Origin: Actinomycetes bacterium
GTDB lineage: Bacteria; Actinomycetota; Acidimicrobiia; Acidimicrobiales; JAKAVM01
Length of the DNA stretch: 45,276 bases
Direction of reading: 5' to 3'
NCBI GenBank assembly: GCA_021827485.1
Contig: JAKAVM010000106.1
Location: 1 to 45,276, forward strand
A program made the position numbers and the translations under genes. This document shows, in pieces, positions 2 to 44,112 of this stretch. Position 1 is the first letter of the stretch, and the number at the start of each line of letters is the position of its first letter. Under the pieces are notes generated by a model. That model was not told the origin of the DNA. It worked only from the letters and a program-made list of their open reading frames with translations, and made no database searches.

Positions 2-1393
2 CTGCCTAGCGGGGCTGAAACTCCACCAGCGATGTCGCGCGAATCATTTTGGGAACTAATGTCAATGGCAGCCTTGACGGCAAGCACGACCCCTCCGTTT
101 TTCTTTTGGCTTGACCACTGTGGATTTGGAGAGAATTGGGAGAAACCTGAGTGGGGTTCTTCACCATCGTCGTTAGATACTTACGTCAAGAAATCCCGCC
201 CAGATTGGGAGCGATATATACGGCCAGGTCCTAAAGTGAATCCTCGCGTTCTTTTTGAACCTGGAACCAATGCTTTACGTCGCACTCGTGGGGGAGGAAG
301 AGGTATCTTGGCAAATTTATGGCCAAAGCTTGATTTGATCGTGTCGATAGACCAAAGGATAAATGGAGCAGGGATGTATGCCGATATCTTACTTCCTGCT
401 GCTCACGATACCGAGAGGGTGAATCTCCAGTATCCGATAACTCACTCTCTTGAGCTTGCATTTAGCGACAAGGTATCCGATCCGCGAGGTCAAGCACGCT
501 CAGATTGGCAGATCTTCTGTGATATTGCTGATGCAATAGCAACGTATGCAAATGAACACTCGTTTGGAGAAACCTTAGTCGGTAGATTCAGACCACATCG
601 TCTTGGCGACACGGGGGTGATCATGCACAAAGATGGAAGCCTTAGATCAGACGAAGCGCTTCTTGATGAGTTGGTACGCGATAGCGCTCTTTCAGGGGTG
701 TTCGATAAAGATACTTCCCTAACATCGCTTCGCGATAGTGGTTATGCACAAGTAACGGGAAATGGGTCATTACCGTCCGGAAGGATGCTTGGCTCACGGA
801 TAAGAGCCGACGAGACCTTCAGCGCTCAACGATGGAGTGTGGAGGGAGGGATGCCATACGCGACTACGACTGGTAGGGCCACTTTCTATGTAGATCACCC
901 ATGGTTCTTAGAGGCTGGCGAGGAGTTGCCTACTCACAAGGATCCTCCTCGCGTCGGTGGGGATCGTCGTTTTGCGCTTACTGGTGGCCATCCACGTTGG
1001 AGTATCCACGCTTGCAACTCCACCAACCCTGTGATTCTGGAAACCACTAGAGGTCATCCTACTTTGGTCATTAATCCTAGAGACGCGCAAGAACTTCAGA
1101 TTTGTGATGATGATTTAGTACAGGTGGAAAATGACTTAGGCACATTTGTGGTGCACGCTAGGGTTGGATTTGGTTCCCGTCCAGGACAAGTAGTGCTATA
1201 TTCCGCGTGGGAGTCCTATGGATTTAGTAACTGGCAAGATGGGACGATGATAGAAGCAGGCATGGTCAAATGGTTGCATTTAGCTACCGACTGGGGCCAT
1301 TTACGATTCATGCCCGAGCAGTGGCAGCCGTCGCCTTCTGATCGTGCAACGAGAGTTGACTTGAAGAAAGTTCGGGGTCCTATCCGGCCCTAA
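2..1393 (+). CDS. Molybdopterin-dependent oxidoreductase (DMSO-reductase superfamily), C-terminal part, truncated at left edge
   Basis: Frame is open to the window edge upstream of ATG 32. Typical motifs: 'LDLIVSIDQRINGAGMYADILLPAAHDTER' and a C-terminal molydop-binding-like region 'HPTLVINPRDAQELQICDDDLVQVENDLGTFVVHARV'. Confidence 0.85.
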   Translation: MPSGAETPPAMSRESFWELMSMAALTASTTPPFFFWLDHCGFGENWEKPEWGSSPSSLDTYVKKSRPDWERYIRPGPKVNPRVLFEPGTNALRRTRGGGRGILANLWPKLDLIVSIDQRINGAGMYADILLPAAHDTERVNLQYPITHSLELAFSDKVSDPRGQARSDWQIFCDIADAIATYANEHSFGETLVGRFRPHRLGDTGVIMHKDGSLRSDEALLDELVRDSALSGVFDKDTSLTSLRDSGYAQVTGNGSLPSGRMLGSRIRADETFSAQRWSVEGGMPYATTTGRATFYVDHPWFLEAGEELPTHKDPPRVGGDRRFALTGGHPRWSIHACNSTNPVILETTRGHPTLVINPRDAQELQICDDDLVQVENDLGTFVVHARVGFGSRPGQVVLYSAWESYGFSNWQDGTMIEAGMVKWLHLATDWGHLRFMPEQWQPSPSDRATRVDLKKVRGPIRP

Positions 1394-1530
1394 GTTCCGC
1401 CCCACTGGTAAGGTCTATTCGGCCCTAAGTTCCGCCCCACTGGTAAGGTCTATTCGGCCCTAAGTTCCGCCCCACTGGTAAGGCCAATTTGGTGCTAAGG
1501 TCCACCCCACCAGCAATACCTATTTCGCAG
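1376..1530. repeat. Left 35-bp tandem repeat array (~4.4 units)
   Basis: Units at 1376, 1411, 1446, 1481 and partial 1516; consensus aggtctattcggccctaagttccgccccactggta. Units 2 and 3 are identical. Confidence 0.95.
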
Positions 1531-1620
1531 GGTTTCACTATCGACTTTTAGTTTGGAAAAACCTTAGGTGGTACACTAAATCCGATTATTACTTACGAAA
1601 TAGACAAAGGAGGGTCCTGA

Positions 1621-1998
1621 ATGGTTACCCCGCCCGAGCCGATGCAAATGGCAGGCCCAGGTCAAATGGTCAGTCTGGCAGCGCTGCACGAGATAGTTTC
1701 ACGCCAGTTCGGCGACCTAGTGAAGGCGGTGGTTGATGTCGAGAAAGGCACGATGGTGATAGGCGGGGAACTGCACGCCGACGAGGAGGCGTTCTTATTG
1801 GACATCGGCTCTCGCCAGAGCGACTTGTGGGGGATCAATCTTTACCCCGCCCAATACGGTGAACTGGATTGGCTGGAGTTTGATTCGATGATCAACCTGC
1901 GTCCCTCGCAGGGCAACCGATCTCGATCCGTCGAAGACCCCACCATCCGGCACCAAATCACTGAAATTGTCGCGCAGCTGGTAAGAAACGATGGCTGA
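1621..1998 (+). CDS. Small protein resembling DUF5674 family
   Basis: 125 aa; 'LHADEEAFLLDIGSRQSDLWGINLYP...EFDSMINLRPSQGNRSRSVEDPTIRHQI'. Strong SD 'aaaggaggg' just upstream of ATG. Confidence 0.75.
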   Translation: MVTPPEPMQMAGPGQMVSLAALHEIVSRQFGDLVKAVVDVEKGTMVIGGELHADEEAFLLDIGSRQSDLWGINLYPAQYGELDWLEFDSMINLRPSQGNRSRSVEDPTIRHQITEIVAQLVRNDG

Positions 1999-2350
1999 AG
2001 ATAATCTGTCCACTCAGACGCTGCCCCTTGGACATTCCGGGTTGGTCGGGGGGCGCTGGGAGCAACTCACCTTGGTAGAGCAACTTGGCAACATCGGTTC
2101 AGAAGTCGGTAGGGCCATCAGAGCGAAGTCTGCAGGGAATAATGAACGATCTCAGGCTGCATTCTATCGGGCCCTCGAACTATTCGATGCGACTGCCGTT
2201 TGTACCCGGTCGGCGGCTCGACGCGAAGTCCTCCGCGCCCGGGAAGTCGTCTGTGATTATCTGGTCGGCGACAACGACTATAACTCGGATGCCTCATCGT
2301 TGGAGGCGTACTTCATCCCGTTCGCAATGGCCGCTCGCTCCGGGAGGTAA
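1991..2350 (+). CDS. Small conserved hypothetical protein, partner of the DUF5674-like gene
   Basis: 119 aa; starts 8 bp inside the preceding ORF; 'EQLGNIGSEVGRAIRAKSAGNNERSQAAFYRALELFDATAVC...REVVCDYLVGDNDYNSDASSLEAYFIPFAMAAR'. Confidence 0.75.
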   Translation: MAEDNLSTQTLPLGHSGLVGGRWEQLTLVEQLGNIGSEVGRAIRAKSAGNNERSQAAFYRALELFDATAVCTRSAARREVLRAREVVCDYLVGDNDYNSDASSLEAYFIPFAMAARSGR

Positions 2351-2502
2351 GGTCCACCCAGTACTTAGTTGCGCCACTAGCTAAGATGTACCAGGTATTT
2401 AGTCCCGCCCCACCAGCAATACCTATCCGACGCCAAGTTCCGCCCCACCAGCAATACCTATCCGACGCCAAGTTCCGTCCCACCAGCAATACCTATTCGG
2501 CG
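2349..2502. repeat. Right 35-bp tandem repeat array (~4.4 units), same family as 1376-1530
   Basis: Units at 2349, 2384, 2419, 2454 and partial 2489; consensus atacctatccgacgccaagttccgccccaccagca. First two units are degenerate but in phase. Confidence 0.93.
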
Positions 2503-3734
2503 TTTGCAAATGTTAATATAACAATTTTCGAAACGGAACTATCGCCTTGAATGACATCAACTGTTCCAACAAGTTCAGTTCCTGATGGGTTCCAAGAACT
2601 GTCCGCGCAAATAACCCTTAGATTGCTGGACGAAGTTTGCGAGGAAGGTGAGTTGAAGAAGGTAATCTGTTTTTTCCCGGTTCCATTGGCATTCATAAGC
2701 CACCAATCAGTTCGTAGGGTCAGTCCCCAATTGGAGGCTGGGGTAAATGGCTCTCCTTGGCTAGTGATCCAAGCAATGTGTTTCCCGTCAGGAGTCATTG
2801 AAGCATGTTCATTCCAAGAACTTGTATTTGGAGTCAATAATACTGGGCTCTGCTGGCTTGCCGGATACCACTCCCATATTCCAAGCGCACATGCCTTGCA
2901 TGAGTTCTCATAAGGGCTATTCATGTTTGAAGAGAAAATCAACTCACCATTAGGTGTAAAACCATGCGTCTCATAAAAGGTACTCCGGTCAGAAATGCCA
3001 GGCCTAAACACTTTCTCTTCAGACAAATATGGGCGCCCTGAAGGGTCTATTTGGAACCTGGCAATATGAATATCCCATTGCCGAGTGAAGGTACCTGCAC
3101 CTCTGTCATAGCCTGCCCAAGCTAACTCTTGTCCATTTCGGGAAAATTGTGGATGTAAGATAGCATCGCCACGCGAGATATGAGTTAGCTGATAAAAACT
3201 CTTTCCATCTGGGGTTGCGGCCCACAAATTATTGTCGAATCCTGCTCCGCCTTGGGCAAGTTGAGGAGGTACGTAACCTAGTGAGGGATCTTCGGATTGG
3301 AAAATAATGAAATTACCATTTGGTGCCCATAACGGAATATCATTACTCAGGTGTGCTATCTGGTTGCTCGTACAGGTCAAGCACCGAGGGTTGCTTCCAC
3401 TAGCGCTAGATGTGTATATATCTGCATAACGTGTACCACTTACAATATGATCATCTAGACTATAGGCAATTGGCCCCTGTGGACTCCACGAGACGCGTCC
3501 GCCATATTTATTCACCAAGACTCTTACTCCCACCACAGGAGAACCAGGCCATCCGTTAGTTGGGAACAGTGAGGTTGTCTGTGTCGGACTAAGAGTCAGC
3601 GGAGTAGTCCGACCTACGTTATTGCGAGATAGTAGCCTGCGTAACAAGTGGTGACCGCAGGATGTCGAACTTAGCGCCGCTAATAGCAAAAAGGAGAAAA
3701 TGATAAAGCCAGACTTTGTCTTTTGAAGTTGCAC
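2493..3734 (-). CDS. TolB/WD40-like beta-propeller lipoprotein
   Basis: 413 aa; lipobox-like 'LAALSSTSC'; repeated 'LWAPNGNFIIF', 'QFSRNGQELAWAG', 'MTPDGKHIAWIT' propeller motifs. Confidence 0.75.
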   Translation of the reverse strand: MQLQKTKSGFIIFSFLLLAALSSTSCGHHLLRRLLSRNNVGRTTPLTLSPTQTTSLFPTNGWPGSPVVGVRVLVNKYGGRVSWSPQGPIAYSLDDHIVSGTRYADIYTSSASGSNPRCLTCTSNQIAHLSNDIPLWAPNGNFIIFQSEDPSLGYVPPQLAQGGAGFDNNLWAATPDGKSFYQLTHISRGDAILHPQFSRNGQELAWAGYDRGAGTFTRQWDIHIARFQIDPSGRPYLSEEKVFRPGISDRSTFYETHGFTPNGELIFSSNMNSPYENSCKACALGIWEWYPASQQSPVLLTPNTSSWNEHASMTPDGKHIAWITSQGEPFTPASNWGLTLRTDWWLMNANGTGKKQITFFNSPSSQTSSSNLRVICADSSWNPSGTELVGTVDVIQGDSSVSKIVILTFANAE

Positions 3735-3825: not shown

Positions 3826-4668
3826 TTGATCGAAGGGATTGCCGGAAAGGTTGCGCTCGTTACAGGAGCAGCAAGGCCGCGTAGTATTGGTCGGGCCACA
3901 GCCATTAGATTGGCTCGTGAAGGAGCCGATGTAGCATGCTTGGATATTGCACAACCCTATAGCGACTTTCCAGGATATGGCCTAGGCAGTAAAGATGACC
4001 TCGATGGGCTGGTAGGGGTCATCACTTCACTAGGAAGGCGCTCGATCGCTGTTCAAGCGGATGTTACAAGTAGCAAACAAGTTATTGGTGCAGTTGACAA
4101 AGTATCACGCGAACTAGGTGGAATAAATATTCTGGTAAATTGCGCTGGAGGAGCAGGGTTTGGAATGGGCGCGGGTCCATTGCTAACTTTATCGGAGTCA
4201 GAGATGCGTAAAGTTATTGACGTCAATCTAATTGGCACTTGGCTAATGTGTAGGTCGGTTGTAAGTAAGATGATCGAAAGTGGAGGGGGAGGCCGGATTG
4301 TCAATATATCGTCACAAGCTGGGAAGCGAGGTTTTCCGCTACTTGGGGCATACTGTGCAGCGAAGGCGGGTGTAATTTTGCTGACACAAGTACTAGCCTT
4401 GGAATTAGGTCCAGCTGGAATTACGGTTAACGCAATTTGTCCAGGTACGGTAGACACAGATCTGCTAAACAAAGATCACCAGTTTGAAAAAATGATGGGT
4501 AGCTTGGAAGCCGGTGGATTTGAAGCATGGGTTCGTCGAGAGATCCCAATAGGGCGAATTGAAGAGCCAGAAGATGTAGCGGGGGCAGTTTGCTTTCTCT
4601 GCAGCAACGATGGTGGATATATTACAGGTGAAGCGCTCAATGTGAGCGGTGGGCAGACAATGGTATGA
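3826..4668 (+). CDS. SDR-family NAD(P)-dependent oxidoreductase
   Basis: TTG start with SD 'aggaggcacc'; 'GKVALVTGAARPRSIGRA', 'NVSSQAG-like' catalytic Ser, 'YCAAKAG', 'GGYITGEALNVSGGQTMV'. Confidence 0.93.
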   Translation: MIEGIAGKVALVTGAARPRSIGRATAIRLAREGADVACLDIAQPYSDFPGYGLGSKDDLDGLVGVITSLGRRSIAVQADVTSSKQVIGAVDKVSRELGGINILVNCAGGAGFGMGAGPLLTLSESEMRKVIDVNLIGTWLMCRSVVSKMIESGGGGRIVNISSQAGKRGFPLLGAYCAAKAGVILLTQVLALELGPAGITVNAICPGTVDTDLLNKDHQFEKMMGSLEAGGFEAWVRREIPIGRIEEPEDVAGAVCFLCSNDGGYITGEALNVSGGQTMV

Positions 4669-5588: not shown

Positions 5589-5601
5589 GTCCCTATCTGA
5601 G

Positions 5602-5676
5602 TCGGGGTGCCGGGATTCGAACCCGGGACCTCCTGCTCCCAAAGCAGGCGCGCTAACCAAGCTGCGCTACACCCCG
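5602..5676 (-). tRNA. tRNA-Pro (anticodon UGG)
   Basis: Reverse complement CGGGGTGTAGCGCAGCTTGGTTAGCGCGCCTGCTTTGGGAGCAGGAGGTCCCGGGTTCGAATCCCGGCACCCCGA; cloverleaf arms and TTCGAAT loop present. CCA not encoded. Confidence 0.95.
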
Positions 5677-35091: not shown

Positions 35092-37038
35092 TTGATTTTG
35101 AATCGAGTCTTAGCCTATAGAAGGCGCTATCTTGGCTTAGCCGTCTTTGCTAGTCTGGTGGCCTTATCGGTTGGTTTTGTTGGTATCGTTGGTGTGCTTC
35201 AAGCACATGCCTCATCCGCTGTGGTACCGACAATTTCAAGCGTAGTTGGCAAACCACAAGTGGCAGGCTATGGGCCAGCTGGAATTGCCACTTCTGCTGA
35301 ATTGAACGATCCCAAGGGAGTTGCTCTTGATTCAGCTGGGAATCTATATGTGGCAGATACGGGCAACTGTGTAGTGTGGAAAATTTCTAAAGGGGTGGCT
35401 TCACTCTATGCAGGTAACCATATCTGCGGAGACAGTGGGGATGGTGGTCCGGCAACTTCTGCAGAATTAGATGCTCCAACCGGACTTGCGCTAAATGCAG
35501 AAGGTGACCTGTTCATATCCGATATGGCTGACTGCGCGGTCAGAGAAGTCACATTCTCCACACAGGATATCTCGACTATTGCAGGTACCGGGTCGTGCGG
35601 ACTTTCAACTTCGGGAGGGCCTGCCACGTCGGTTCGGTTAGATACCCCGACCGGGCTAGCAGTTAGTTCTACTGGTGATCTGTTTATTTCAGATGAAGCA
35701 GCTTGCGCTGTTTGGGAGGTGTCCAACTCCGTTATCAGCGATTTTGCCGGGGAACCCGGTGTGTGCGGATTGTCAGGTGTCGGAGGGCCTGCAAGTCAAT
35801 CACAGGTGGGTCGCATCTCAAGTGTTGCCCTAGATGCAAATGGAAATGCGTACTTAGGTGATTCGGTCAATTGTACAGTTTGGAAAGTCGGAGCATCTTC
35901 GCGGGACTTGAGTGTATTTGCTGGATCAGGCGATGGGCATTGTGGAAATAGTGGCGATGGATATCCTGCGCAATTTGCTGAACTTGGGCAGGTTACAGGA
36001 GTTGGAGTCGATGCGGCGGGTGATATCTATATCGTCATCAATGACTGGTGCCAAGTCAGGGAAGTTTTTGCATCAGGCTTTATTGATACCGTAGTCGGCT
36101 CATCTTCTAGTCCATCGTGTGGATATTCGGGTGACGGAGGTCCTGCCACTCAAGCAAGACTATTTTCGCCAACTAGTATCGCGATAGGTGCTAAAGGTAT
36201 TGACTACATTGCAGACTCTTTCAATGATGTAATTAGAATGGTCTCAGATCCGACACCAGTAATTTCTTCAGTATCACCTAGCAGTGGTCCTACAACTGGA
36301 GGTATACAAGTTTCAATAACGGGATCAAACTTGGGAGGAACTACATCTGTAGAATTTGGAGGAGTTTCTGCAACCGCCGTTGAGGTAGTCTCGCCTACTC
36401 TAGTTTTTGCAACATTACCAGCAGGTCCGGCTGGCAATGTAGACATATCTGCCGCTACCCTTGCCGGTAGCACGCCGCTTTCCCCGGCTGTTACATTCTC
36501 CTATCAAGTCATGCTATCTACGACCACATCAACAAGCACAAGTTCATCTACAACCACATCAACCAGCACAAGTTCATCTACGACCACATCAACAACGGTG
36601 AGTTCAAGTACGAGTAGCTTCGCAACAACTTCTACTACATCAGTAAACCCGGGTAAGGCGTCCTCAAAAGGCTACTGGTTGGTCGGATCCGACGGCGGCC
36701 TATTCTCCTTTGGCGACGCTCAGTTCTTTGGTTCAATGGGAGGCCAGCCACTCGCCGCGCCGATCACTGGAATGGCTACTACCCCCGATGGCAAAGGCTA
36801 CTGGTTGGTCGGATCCGACGGCGGCCTATTCTCCTTTGGCGACGCTCAGTTCTTTGGTTCAATGGGAGGCCAGCCACTCGCCGCGCCGATCACTGGAATG
36901 GCTACTACCCCCGATGGCAAAGGCTACTGGTTGGTCGGATCCGACGGCGGCCTATTCTCCTTTGGCGACGCTCAGTTCTTTGGTTCAATGGGAGGGAAGG
37001 CTCTTACCTCTTCGGTTGTAGGTGTCTGCGCCCTTTGA
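35092..37038 (+). CDS. Secreted NHL-repeat / IPT-TIG protein with Thr/Ser linker and C-terminal WLVGSDGG repeats
   Basis: '[24 protein letters not shown]', '[19 protein letters not shown]', IPT/TIG '[36 protein letters not shown]', then '[25 protein letters not shown]' x3. Confidence 0.87.
36518..36602 (+). repeat. 30-bp tandem repeat encoding Thr/Ser linker
   Basis: ctacgaccacatcaacaagcacaagttcat-type units at 36518, 36548 and 36578. Confidence 0.85.
36670..36994 (+). repeat. 126-bp essentially perfect tandem repeat (~2.6 copies)
   Basis: 'ggctactggttggtcggatccgacggcggcctattctcc...' starts at 36670, 36796 and 36922. Confidence 0.95.
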
Positions 37039-41821: not shown

Positions 41822-43412
41822 TACGTACGACGCCATCATAATTGGTGCTGGCCATAACGGTTTGACATTGGGTTCCTATCTGGCCAGGAGTGGATTAGAT
41901 GTCGTTGTGCTTGAGCGTCGTCATGAAGAAGGTGGCGGGCTGGCAACTGAGGAATTAACGCTTCCTGGTTTCTTGCATAATGTTCATGCGAATTACCACA
42001 CCTTTGTGGATATGGCCCCTCCAGTGAAAGACTTGGAGGTGCGATCGCATGGAGTAACTTACGTTCGGCCAGAGGTACAGATGGCTTCTGTCTATGATGA
42101 TGGAACTGCGTTGGTAATTCATACAGATCTTGACAAGACATGTGAGTCGATAGCACGGTTTTCTGAAGAGGATGCTCAAACCTTCAGAAGGCTGTATTTG
42201 GAAGCGCATGGATATGTTGATCTCTTGCTAGGAACTCTTATGTATCAACCGCCAATGTCGGTCAAGGAACTTACTAAAGCCCTAGCTTCTTTTGGGATAG
42301 AAGACAGGTCTGAGTTCTTGGGCGTAAAGCTTCGCAGGGAAAGCATCAATTGGTTTCTTGATAAACACTTTACGAACTCAAAAGTAAAAGCCCATCTCGC
42401 TTTTCACGCTGCTGTATGTGGTTATGTCAATGATTTGCCTGGATTGGCAATAGGTTTTCCGCTATTAGTAGGAAAGATTGATAATTGGCACCTTTGTGTT
42501 GGTGGGTCACACAGACTGGCACACGGTCTGTGGAGAGATCTAGCGCGCAATGGAGGCGTGATGATCTCAGATGCAGATGTTGTACGTATTGTTGTAGATA
42601 AAGGTAGGGCAGTTGGGGTTAGATTGAGCGATGGAACCGAGCTGTCGGCGCGTAAGTTAGTCGCATCGACAGTTGACATCGAGCAGACATTTTTGGAGAT
42701 GGTCGATGAAGATTCGATTCCTAGTGAACTTCGCAATAAGATTGGATCTGGTTTAGCTCACCAGAAGTGGTCTCTGTTTTCAGTACATTTAGCGCTTAGT
42801 GAACTTCCTCACTATGAAGCTTCAAGTTTTGATCCAGATGTAGATCGAGCTTGGGTTGTTAACCTCGGATACGGTTCAACCGGCGAACTAGACTCTGACT
42901 GGGAGGTAATAAGGAAGGGGTTACTACCGAAGTTTCCGCGGCCCAACGCAGCAGTCAATTCTCTTTACGATCCCACCGACGCACCTGAGGGGTGCTTTAC
43001 GGGTTTGCTCCGGCAGTTTGCACCATACTCGATCCATGGCGAGGGGCCTGCTGGCTGGGATGGGCTGAGTAATTGGTACGCAAAACAGTGCTTGAATACA
43101 TGGGAGCGTTTTGCCCCAAATATTAATGACAATTCAATCTTAGATTGGGCTCCTTACTCTCCGGCTGATATTCCACGCAAGATCAAGAACATGGTTGACG
43201 GTGATTGGATGATGGGTGAAGTATCTTTGAGCAACATGTTAGATCAAAGACCGTTGCCAGAGCTAGGGCAATATCGAACTCCGATTGAAGGACTTTATTT
43301 GGCAGGCTCAACTCAACATCCACACGGATTCATTACTTTTGGTCCAGCATATAACGCCCTTCAGGTAATCGCTGACGACCTGGAATTAGATAAATGGTGG
43401 AACGAGATTTAG
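41814..43412 (+). CDS. Phytoene desaturase-like (CrtI/COG1233) FAD-dependent oxidoreductase, copy 2
   Basis: ATG 41814 overlaps upstream stop; 'YDAIIIGAGHNGLTLGSYLARSGLDVVVLERRHEEGGGLATEE', 'GLYLAGSTQHPHGFITFGPAYNA'. Confidence 0.9.
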   Translation: MRNTYDAIIIGAGHNGLTLGSYLARSGLDVVVLERRHEEGGGLATEELTLPGFLHNVHANYHTFVDMAPPVKDLEVRSHGVTYVRPEVQMASVYDDGTALVIHTDLDKTCESIARFSEEDAQTFRRLYLEAHGYVDLLLGTLMYQPPMSVKELTKALASFGIEDRSEFLGVKLRRESINWFLDKHFTNSKVKAHLAFHAAVCGYVNDLPGLAIGFPLLVGKIDNWHLCVGGSHRLAHGLWRDLARNGGVMISDADVVRIVVDKGRAVGVRLSDGTELSARKLVASTVDIEQTFLEMVDEDSIPSELRNKIGSGLAHQKWSLFSVHLALSELPHYEASSFDPDVDRAWVVNLGYGSTGELDSDWEVIRKGLLPKFPRPNAAVNSLYDPTDAPEGCFTGLLRQFAPYSIHGEGPAGWDGLSNWYAKQCLNTWERFAPNINDNSILDWAPYSPADIPRKIKNMVDGDWMMGEVSLSNMLDQRPLPELGQYRTPIEGLYLAGSTQHPHGFITFGPAYNALQVIADDLELDKWWNEI

Positions 43413-43552
43413 GCGCCGAGCGGACTCAAGACCGATACCGCTCATTAGATGCTGAGCGGACTCAAGACCGATACCGCTCTTTAGGCGCCGAGCGGAAAAG
43501 AGACCGTCAATCCTTTTTTGTAGTTGCCAGGTTGAACTCATGCCGCAAGTAG
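43397..43552 (+). CDS. Candidate 51-aa mini-ORF with 12-aa repeats (GTG start)
   Basis: (V/M)ERDL-GAERTQDRYRSL-DAERTQDRYRSL-GAERKRDRQSFFVVARLNSCRK; overlaps both flanking genes in another frame. Confidence 0.2.
   Translation: MERDLGAERTQDRYRSLDAERTQDRYRSLGAERKRDRQSFFVVARLNSCRK
43409..43496 (+). repeat. 36-bp tandem repeat (~2.4 copies) over the stop codon of CrtI-like copy 2
   Basis: ttaggcgccgagcggactcaagaccgataccgctca units at 43409, 43445 and partial 43481; each full unit has GAGCGG-N14-CCGCTC. Confidence 0.95.
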
Positions 43553-44022: not shown

Positions 44023-44112
44023 ATGAATCCACTGATCAAGAACCCAAGAGGAGTGACCAAGGGTCCAAGAGGAGAAACCAAGAACCCAAGACGAGTTGAG
44101 GAAAATCAATGA
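44023..44112 (+). CDS. Candidate 29-aa coupled mini-ORF with 7-aa repeats
   Basis: MNPLI-KNPRGVT-KGPRGET-KNPRRVE-ENQ; starts 3 bp after the upstream TAA and ends ATGA-overlapped with the MCP start. Confidence 0.35.
   Translation: MNPLIKNPRGVTKGPRGETKNPRRVEENQ
44038..44100 (+). repeat. 21-bp tandem repeat x3 upstream of the chemoreceptor gene
   Basis: aagaacccaagaggagtgacc / aagggtccaagaggagaaacc / aagaacccaagacgagttgag. Confidence 0.92.

Follow-up and report, generated by a model that had tools for sequence, protein, structure and literature searches.

A DUF5674 gene pair between arrays of a 35-bp repeat as a candidate mobile, toxin-antitoxin-like module

In a contig of an Acidimicrobiales bacterium, two small overlapping genes are enclosed on both sides by arrays of one and the same 35-bp repeat, which raises the question of what kind of unit these genes form and what part the repeats played in its arrival. 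An earlier note, made from the letters of the window alone (the whole stretch of 45,276 nucleotides that was analysed), had described the two ORFs as GC-richer than their neighbours and had proposed a mobile or domesticated module using the array as landing site or boundary. The described arrangement was confirmed, with about four repeat units on each side, ORFs that overlap by 8 bp and a GC content of 57.5% for positions 1621-2350 versus 47.3% for the window, only 0.6% of equal-sized stretches being higher. The locus comprises the following features.

32..1393, plus strand: molybdopterin oxidoreductase ORF, 3' part at the contig edge (Pfam PF01568/PF00384)
1380..1524, plus strand: left 35-bp array with three form-A units, one hybrid A/B unit and a partial unit
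1525..1620, plus strand: 5' region of the module, ~95 bp, with presumed promoter and strong ribosome-binding site (from sequence)
1621..1998, plus strand: DUF5674 protein, 125 aa, candidate enzyme/toxin (PF18924, E 3e-33)
1991..2350, plus strand: partner protein, 119 aa, predicted four-helix bundle, candidate antitoxin (adjoins DUF5674 in homologues; AF2 model)
~2346..2498, plus strand: right 35-bp array, degenerate units followed by form-B units, from the partner stop to the PD40 gene stop
2493..3734, minus strand: PD40/WD40-like beta-propeller protein, convergent neighbour (weak PF07676)

Using Tandem Repeats Finder, the left array was delimited at 1380-1510 (period 35, 91% match) and the right array at 2401-2496 (period 35, 96% match), while an ungapped repeat search found a 30-nt core eight times in register, the copies being spaced by 35, 35, 35, 869, 34, 35 and 35. 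The left and right flanks also align with each other in blastn (127 bp, 71%, E about 5e-19). On the left, near-identical form-A units start at 1380, 1415 and 1450 and are followed by a hybrid unit bearing the form-B end CACCAGCAATAC; the change of form that had been noticed before is real, but it concerns only this last unit (1485-1519) and not several of the last units. On the right, degenerate units from about 2346 precede form-B units at 2423 and 2458. The last ~5 codons and the stop (1391-1393) of the oxidoreductase ORF, which is a few residues longer than its homologues (these stop near residue 447), fall within the first left unit. Likewise, the partner's stop TAA (2348-2350) is common to the first right-hand unit, as had been pointed out, and the stop codon of the PD40-like gene forms the far end of the right array. 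The first right-hand unit is degenerate and allows two alignment registers, so the phases at the junctions are compatible with either a split or a duplicated array. The window locus is a real insertion-like structure. Ahead of the DUF5674 gene, a strong ribosome-binding site, AAAGGAGGG, is present at 1606-1614, and a promoter is presumed within 1525-1620, where no match to the sigma-70 consensus was found.

The DUF5674 likeness of the first ORF, suggested earlier, holds: the protein is a clear member of the family PF18924, scoring 114 bits against a curated cut-off of 27. DUF5674 is a family without assigned function, neither DUF5674 nor PF18924 was mentioned in the literature searched, and the pair is uncharacterised. 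Among 57 DUF5674 sequences, the polar residues K35, D39, H52, D54, E56, N73, E86, S89, N92, N99 and R102 are invariant, together with V38, W70, G71 and P95, and this polar set looks enzyme-like as judged from conservation. The AF2 model of the protein is confident (pLDDT 86), with no fold match in the PDB. The partner, which gave no match in Pfam, NCBIfam or PADLOC, is confidently modelled as a four-helix bundle (pLDDT 89). Its best structural match is FliS (TM about 0.54, E 0.6), a weak similarity from which no function was derived. No toxin, antitoxin or DNA-binding domain was recognised in either protein (Pfam, NCBIfam, PADLOC and, for the partner, PDB).

Concerning the repeat, no 22-mer match (up to 2 mismatches) was found elsewhere in the 2.78-Mb genome, and none in the three family genomes or in collections of plasmids, phages and viral contigs; the search suggested by the earlier note for copies flanking other cassettes, in this genome and in related ones, yielded no further copy. 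This genome is rich in spacer arrays whose units are unrelated, be a module nearby or not. A 301-kb sample, window included, holds 17 spacer tandem arrays, two of them belonging to the window locus; the repeat units vary, each array having its own, and 11 of the 17 lie at most 60 bp from the 3' end of a gene. In a same-genus genome, one such array was found in 400 kb, so that spacer arrays are >20 times denser here, with units ever different and many near stops. Within the window, a second array with a 36-bp unit (43408-43496) begins at a stop codon, and a further spacer tandem array lies at 44037-44096. Given these many arrays with their varied units, the simplest view is that the 35-bp array is one more spacer minisatellite of this genome. 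Hence, of the original proposal, an acquired two-gene module in or with repeated DNA remains, whereas a specialised role of the array as landing site or boundary is not supported: the 35-mer is unique to the locus, other copies of the module adjoin different sequences, and spacer arrays are commonplace in this genome. A CRISPR array was also rejected because the repeat units are contiguous, without spacers. What merits attention at this locus is the gene pair, the array being nothing unusual for the genome.

This pair is conserved across many phyla and, to judge from its distribution, was probably acquired horizontally in this genome. DUF5674 is encoded in 1 of 395 genomes of the class, the one being this genome, and is absent from the other three family genomes and from all 394 other class genomes searched; in the phylum, it occurs in 18 of 397 genomes. 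The partner is encoded at every phylum DUF5674 locus with readable downstream sequence. Starting from the partner, 80 loci from many phyla (Patescibacteria lineages, Omnitrophota, Nitrospirota, Chloroflexota and others) were collected, and DUF5674 lies directly upstream in 69 of them, or in 70 if a fused or read-through frame is counted, which bears out the earlier remark that similar paired small proteins exist in diverse prokaryotes. In the tree of the pair, Actinomycetota members are scattered, with 6 changes, at least 3 of them forced. DUF5674 and its partner are two small, adjacent and translationally coupled genes kept as a pair, with a patchy horizontal distribution, and make up an old, mobile two-gene unit. 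Partners without DUF5674 were found at 10 of the 80 loci, DUF5674 without a downstream partner at 0 of about 23 (p = 0.11, not significant), a pattern that agrees weakly with a toxin role for DUF5674 and an antitoxin role for the partner. In cyanobacteria, plasmid-borne DUF5674 genes are likewise followed directly by a small gene (118-124 aa; 6/6 plasmids, loci L042, L043 and L254-L257), but that gene belongs to another conserved family, with no detectable relationship to the window partner (hhalign probability 2%, E 0.025), a possible partner swap; no plasmid relatives of the window partner were found. A phage origin was discarded, as the pair occurred on only one viral contig and on none of the phage records.

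In other genomes, direct repeats of 38-261 bp (E <= 1e-5) bracket 12 of 92 modules, inverted repeats none of the 92; the window was omitted from these counts because it had been chosen for its repeats. Of 294 control intervals taken from these loci, 5 have direct repeats at their flanks (modules versus controls, Fisher p = 4e-5), three of these five being toxin-antitoxin genes themselves (ParE/RelE, AbiEi and a nucleotidyltransferase). As positive control, ParE/RelE modules displayed direct repeats at 14 of 106 loci and inverted repeats at 0 of 106, versus 3 repeat-flanked cases among 171 size-matched genes, two of which are PIN-domain toxins. Controls thus consisted of same-locus intervals and size-matched genes, with accessory non-toxin-antitoxin genes forming no separate group, and the genomes surveyed are mostly metagenome-assembled. 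With 80 of 92 modules lacking a detectable flanking repeat, the signature is confined to a minority. A looser design gave a weak excess for the partner (p about 0.05 versus controls) and no significant one for RelE, in part because the control matches were other toxin-antitoxin genes; this design was dropped in favour of a stricter one since its controls held many spurious ORFs besides such genes. Among the control matches, PIN, HEPN, AbiE and nucleotidyltransferase toxin-antitoxin genes appeared. Repeat-flanked ParE/RelE loci in Actinomycetota, with repeats of 37-447 bp, include L187, L197, L204, L216, L223, L225, L229 and L239. Flanking direct repeats are possibly a general footprint of toxin-antitoxin mobility.

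The duplicated segments around the DUF5674 modules are unrelated to each other: 3' ends of rluB, fumC and a Pup-ligase gene, the 5' end of uvrC, and 5S rRNA. Usually, the downstream copy begins 4-75 bp past the partner stop (in the window, at the stop), and one of the two copies remains part of the intact gene. At two orphan partner loci (L114 and L077), the 3' end of the upstream gene recurs after the partner. Beside the module copy at L101, a partial 5S rRNA gene lies on one side and an intact one on the other (3072-3181 and 4098-4214).

For one of these sites, an unoccupied counterpart is available. Genome G552 carries the rluB 3' end (~265 bp) on both sides of the module, while G453, of the same genus, has a single rluB without module or second copy there; in G415, the module sits at the same rluB end without a second rluB copy. 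As synteny beyond the insertion point is not conserved, the comparison supports insertion without fixing every step. For the window locus, the empty site with a contiguous array that the earlier note had envisaged was not found in the three family genomes, in which the flanking genes are not syntenic. Full-length homologues of the oxidoreductase are only 41-45% identical and stand in other contexts, and the PD40-like gene has no homologue in the same-genus genome. Where a gene end is duplicated (four cases: rluB, Pup ligase, uvrC and fumC), the two copies differ at 58 of 210 third codon positions, but at only 30 of 422 first and second positions (p about 2e-11). Such a bias is expected of donor and resident orthologues diverged under selection, not of a neutrally decaying duplicate; it appears to point to homologous donor DNA and favours homology-assisted insertion over pure target duplication. 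In E. coli, single crossover of circles with a short homologous arm is reported to yield flanking duplications of 109-950 bp (PMC3240628).

Taken together, we slightly favour the reading that the pair is a mobile, toxin-antitoxin-like module spread by homology-assisted recombination, in this genome into a spacer array. DUF5674 and its partner would form a compact module of two genes that moves horizontally but carries no transposase of its own, most likely working like a type II toxin-antitoxin pair in addiction or defence, in which DUF5674 would be the active enzyme and the helical partner would neutralise it. DNA bearing the module would integrate by homology-assisted recombination, either as a circularised fragment by single crossover or through one homologous and one illegitimate end, and would leave direct repeats of local sequence on either side. 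In the window, the spacer of two convergent genes would have supplied this local sequence in the form of a 35-bp minisatellite, which is why the direct repeats there are arrays. A more far-reaching version, held only tentatively, is that the pair represents a novel system of toxin-antitoxin or defence type, widespread and with an enzyme whose fold is missing from the PDB, and that addiction pairs including ParE/RelE spread likewise as naked modules. Homologous recombination at the ends of neighbouring genes would then carry such pairs between relatives, and the direct repeats would remain as a footprint usable to find further systems.

Alternatively, the genes could be a horizontally acquired housekeeping or metabolic pair, around which an unrelated 35-bp minisatellite expanded on both sides after insertion. 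The abundance of spacer arrays near gene 3' ends and the confinement of the 35-bp repeat to this locus agree with this, yet one repeat family on both sides with a hybrid unit next to the junction implies either that the array predates the insert or that a duplication took place, and flanking direct repeats recur around the module in other phyla; this course of events is considered unlikely. It is also rather improbable that the module arrived by a transposon-like insertion with long target-site duplication, the copies being identical at first and decaying later. Here, the geometry does fit, with 38-261 bp direct copies at the module ends and one copy usually in an intact gene, and restriction-modification systems are reported to insert in this way with duplications of about 100 bp (PMC3874152, PMC3031569). 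However, the third-position bias of the gene-end copies is unlike neutral decay of one copy, and in the window there is neither a transposase ORF between the arrays nor any inverted end that would mark an insertion sequence or transposon.

That the contig was misassembled, the module having been joined to it via the repeats, has to be weighed for a repeat-flanked locus of deviating GC content only 1.4 kb from the contig end. The two arrays, however, share at most a 19-bp exact string, which is shorter than usual assembly k-mers, and the contig runs on to 141 kb, making an artefact very improbable. Least probable of all is an integron-like or other site-specific gene cassette with the 35-bp repeats as recombination sites. 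Although the repeats start exactly at stop codons, as attC sites do, and are co-oriented on both sides, this idea is largely refuted: the region holds direct tandem units and none of the inverted repeats of attC sites or structured RNA, Rfam gave no match, the repeat is absent from the rest of the genome, and other copies of the module adjoin unrelated sequences.

Among known systems, the mobile toxin-antitoxin-like module favoured here comes closest to type II modules such as ParDE and RelBE, which are likewise two small adjacent genes of patchy distribution and are flanked by direct repeats equally often among the loci surveyed here (14/106 versus 12/92). In contrast to these, neither module protein has a recognised toxin or antitoxin domain, the likeness stemming from the genomic footprint. 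Restriction-modification units (Nobusato 2000 and Furuta 2010, as cited in PMC3031569 and PMC3874152) are also compact pairs without transposase that insert with direct flanking duplications of about 100 bp at sites empty in a relative, comparable to G453 versus G552 for the module. The module differs from them in lacking restriction and methylation genes and in flanking-copy differences that resemble donor/resident divergence. If the favoured reading is true, a conserved protein pair, present in hundreds of bacteria that are mostly uncultured, would acquire a role open to testing, and direct repeats around a small gene pair would mark mobile addiction modules even if these contain no known domain. 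Light would also be shed on the movement of toxin-antitoxin genes without a transposon or phage carrier.

Elsewhere in the window, a 126-bp tandem repeat (36667-36995; 2.6 copies, 100% identical) lies in coding sequence and is translated into a repetitive stretch of protein, and a tRNA-Pro (tgg) gene is located at 5601-5676 on the minus strand.
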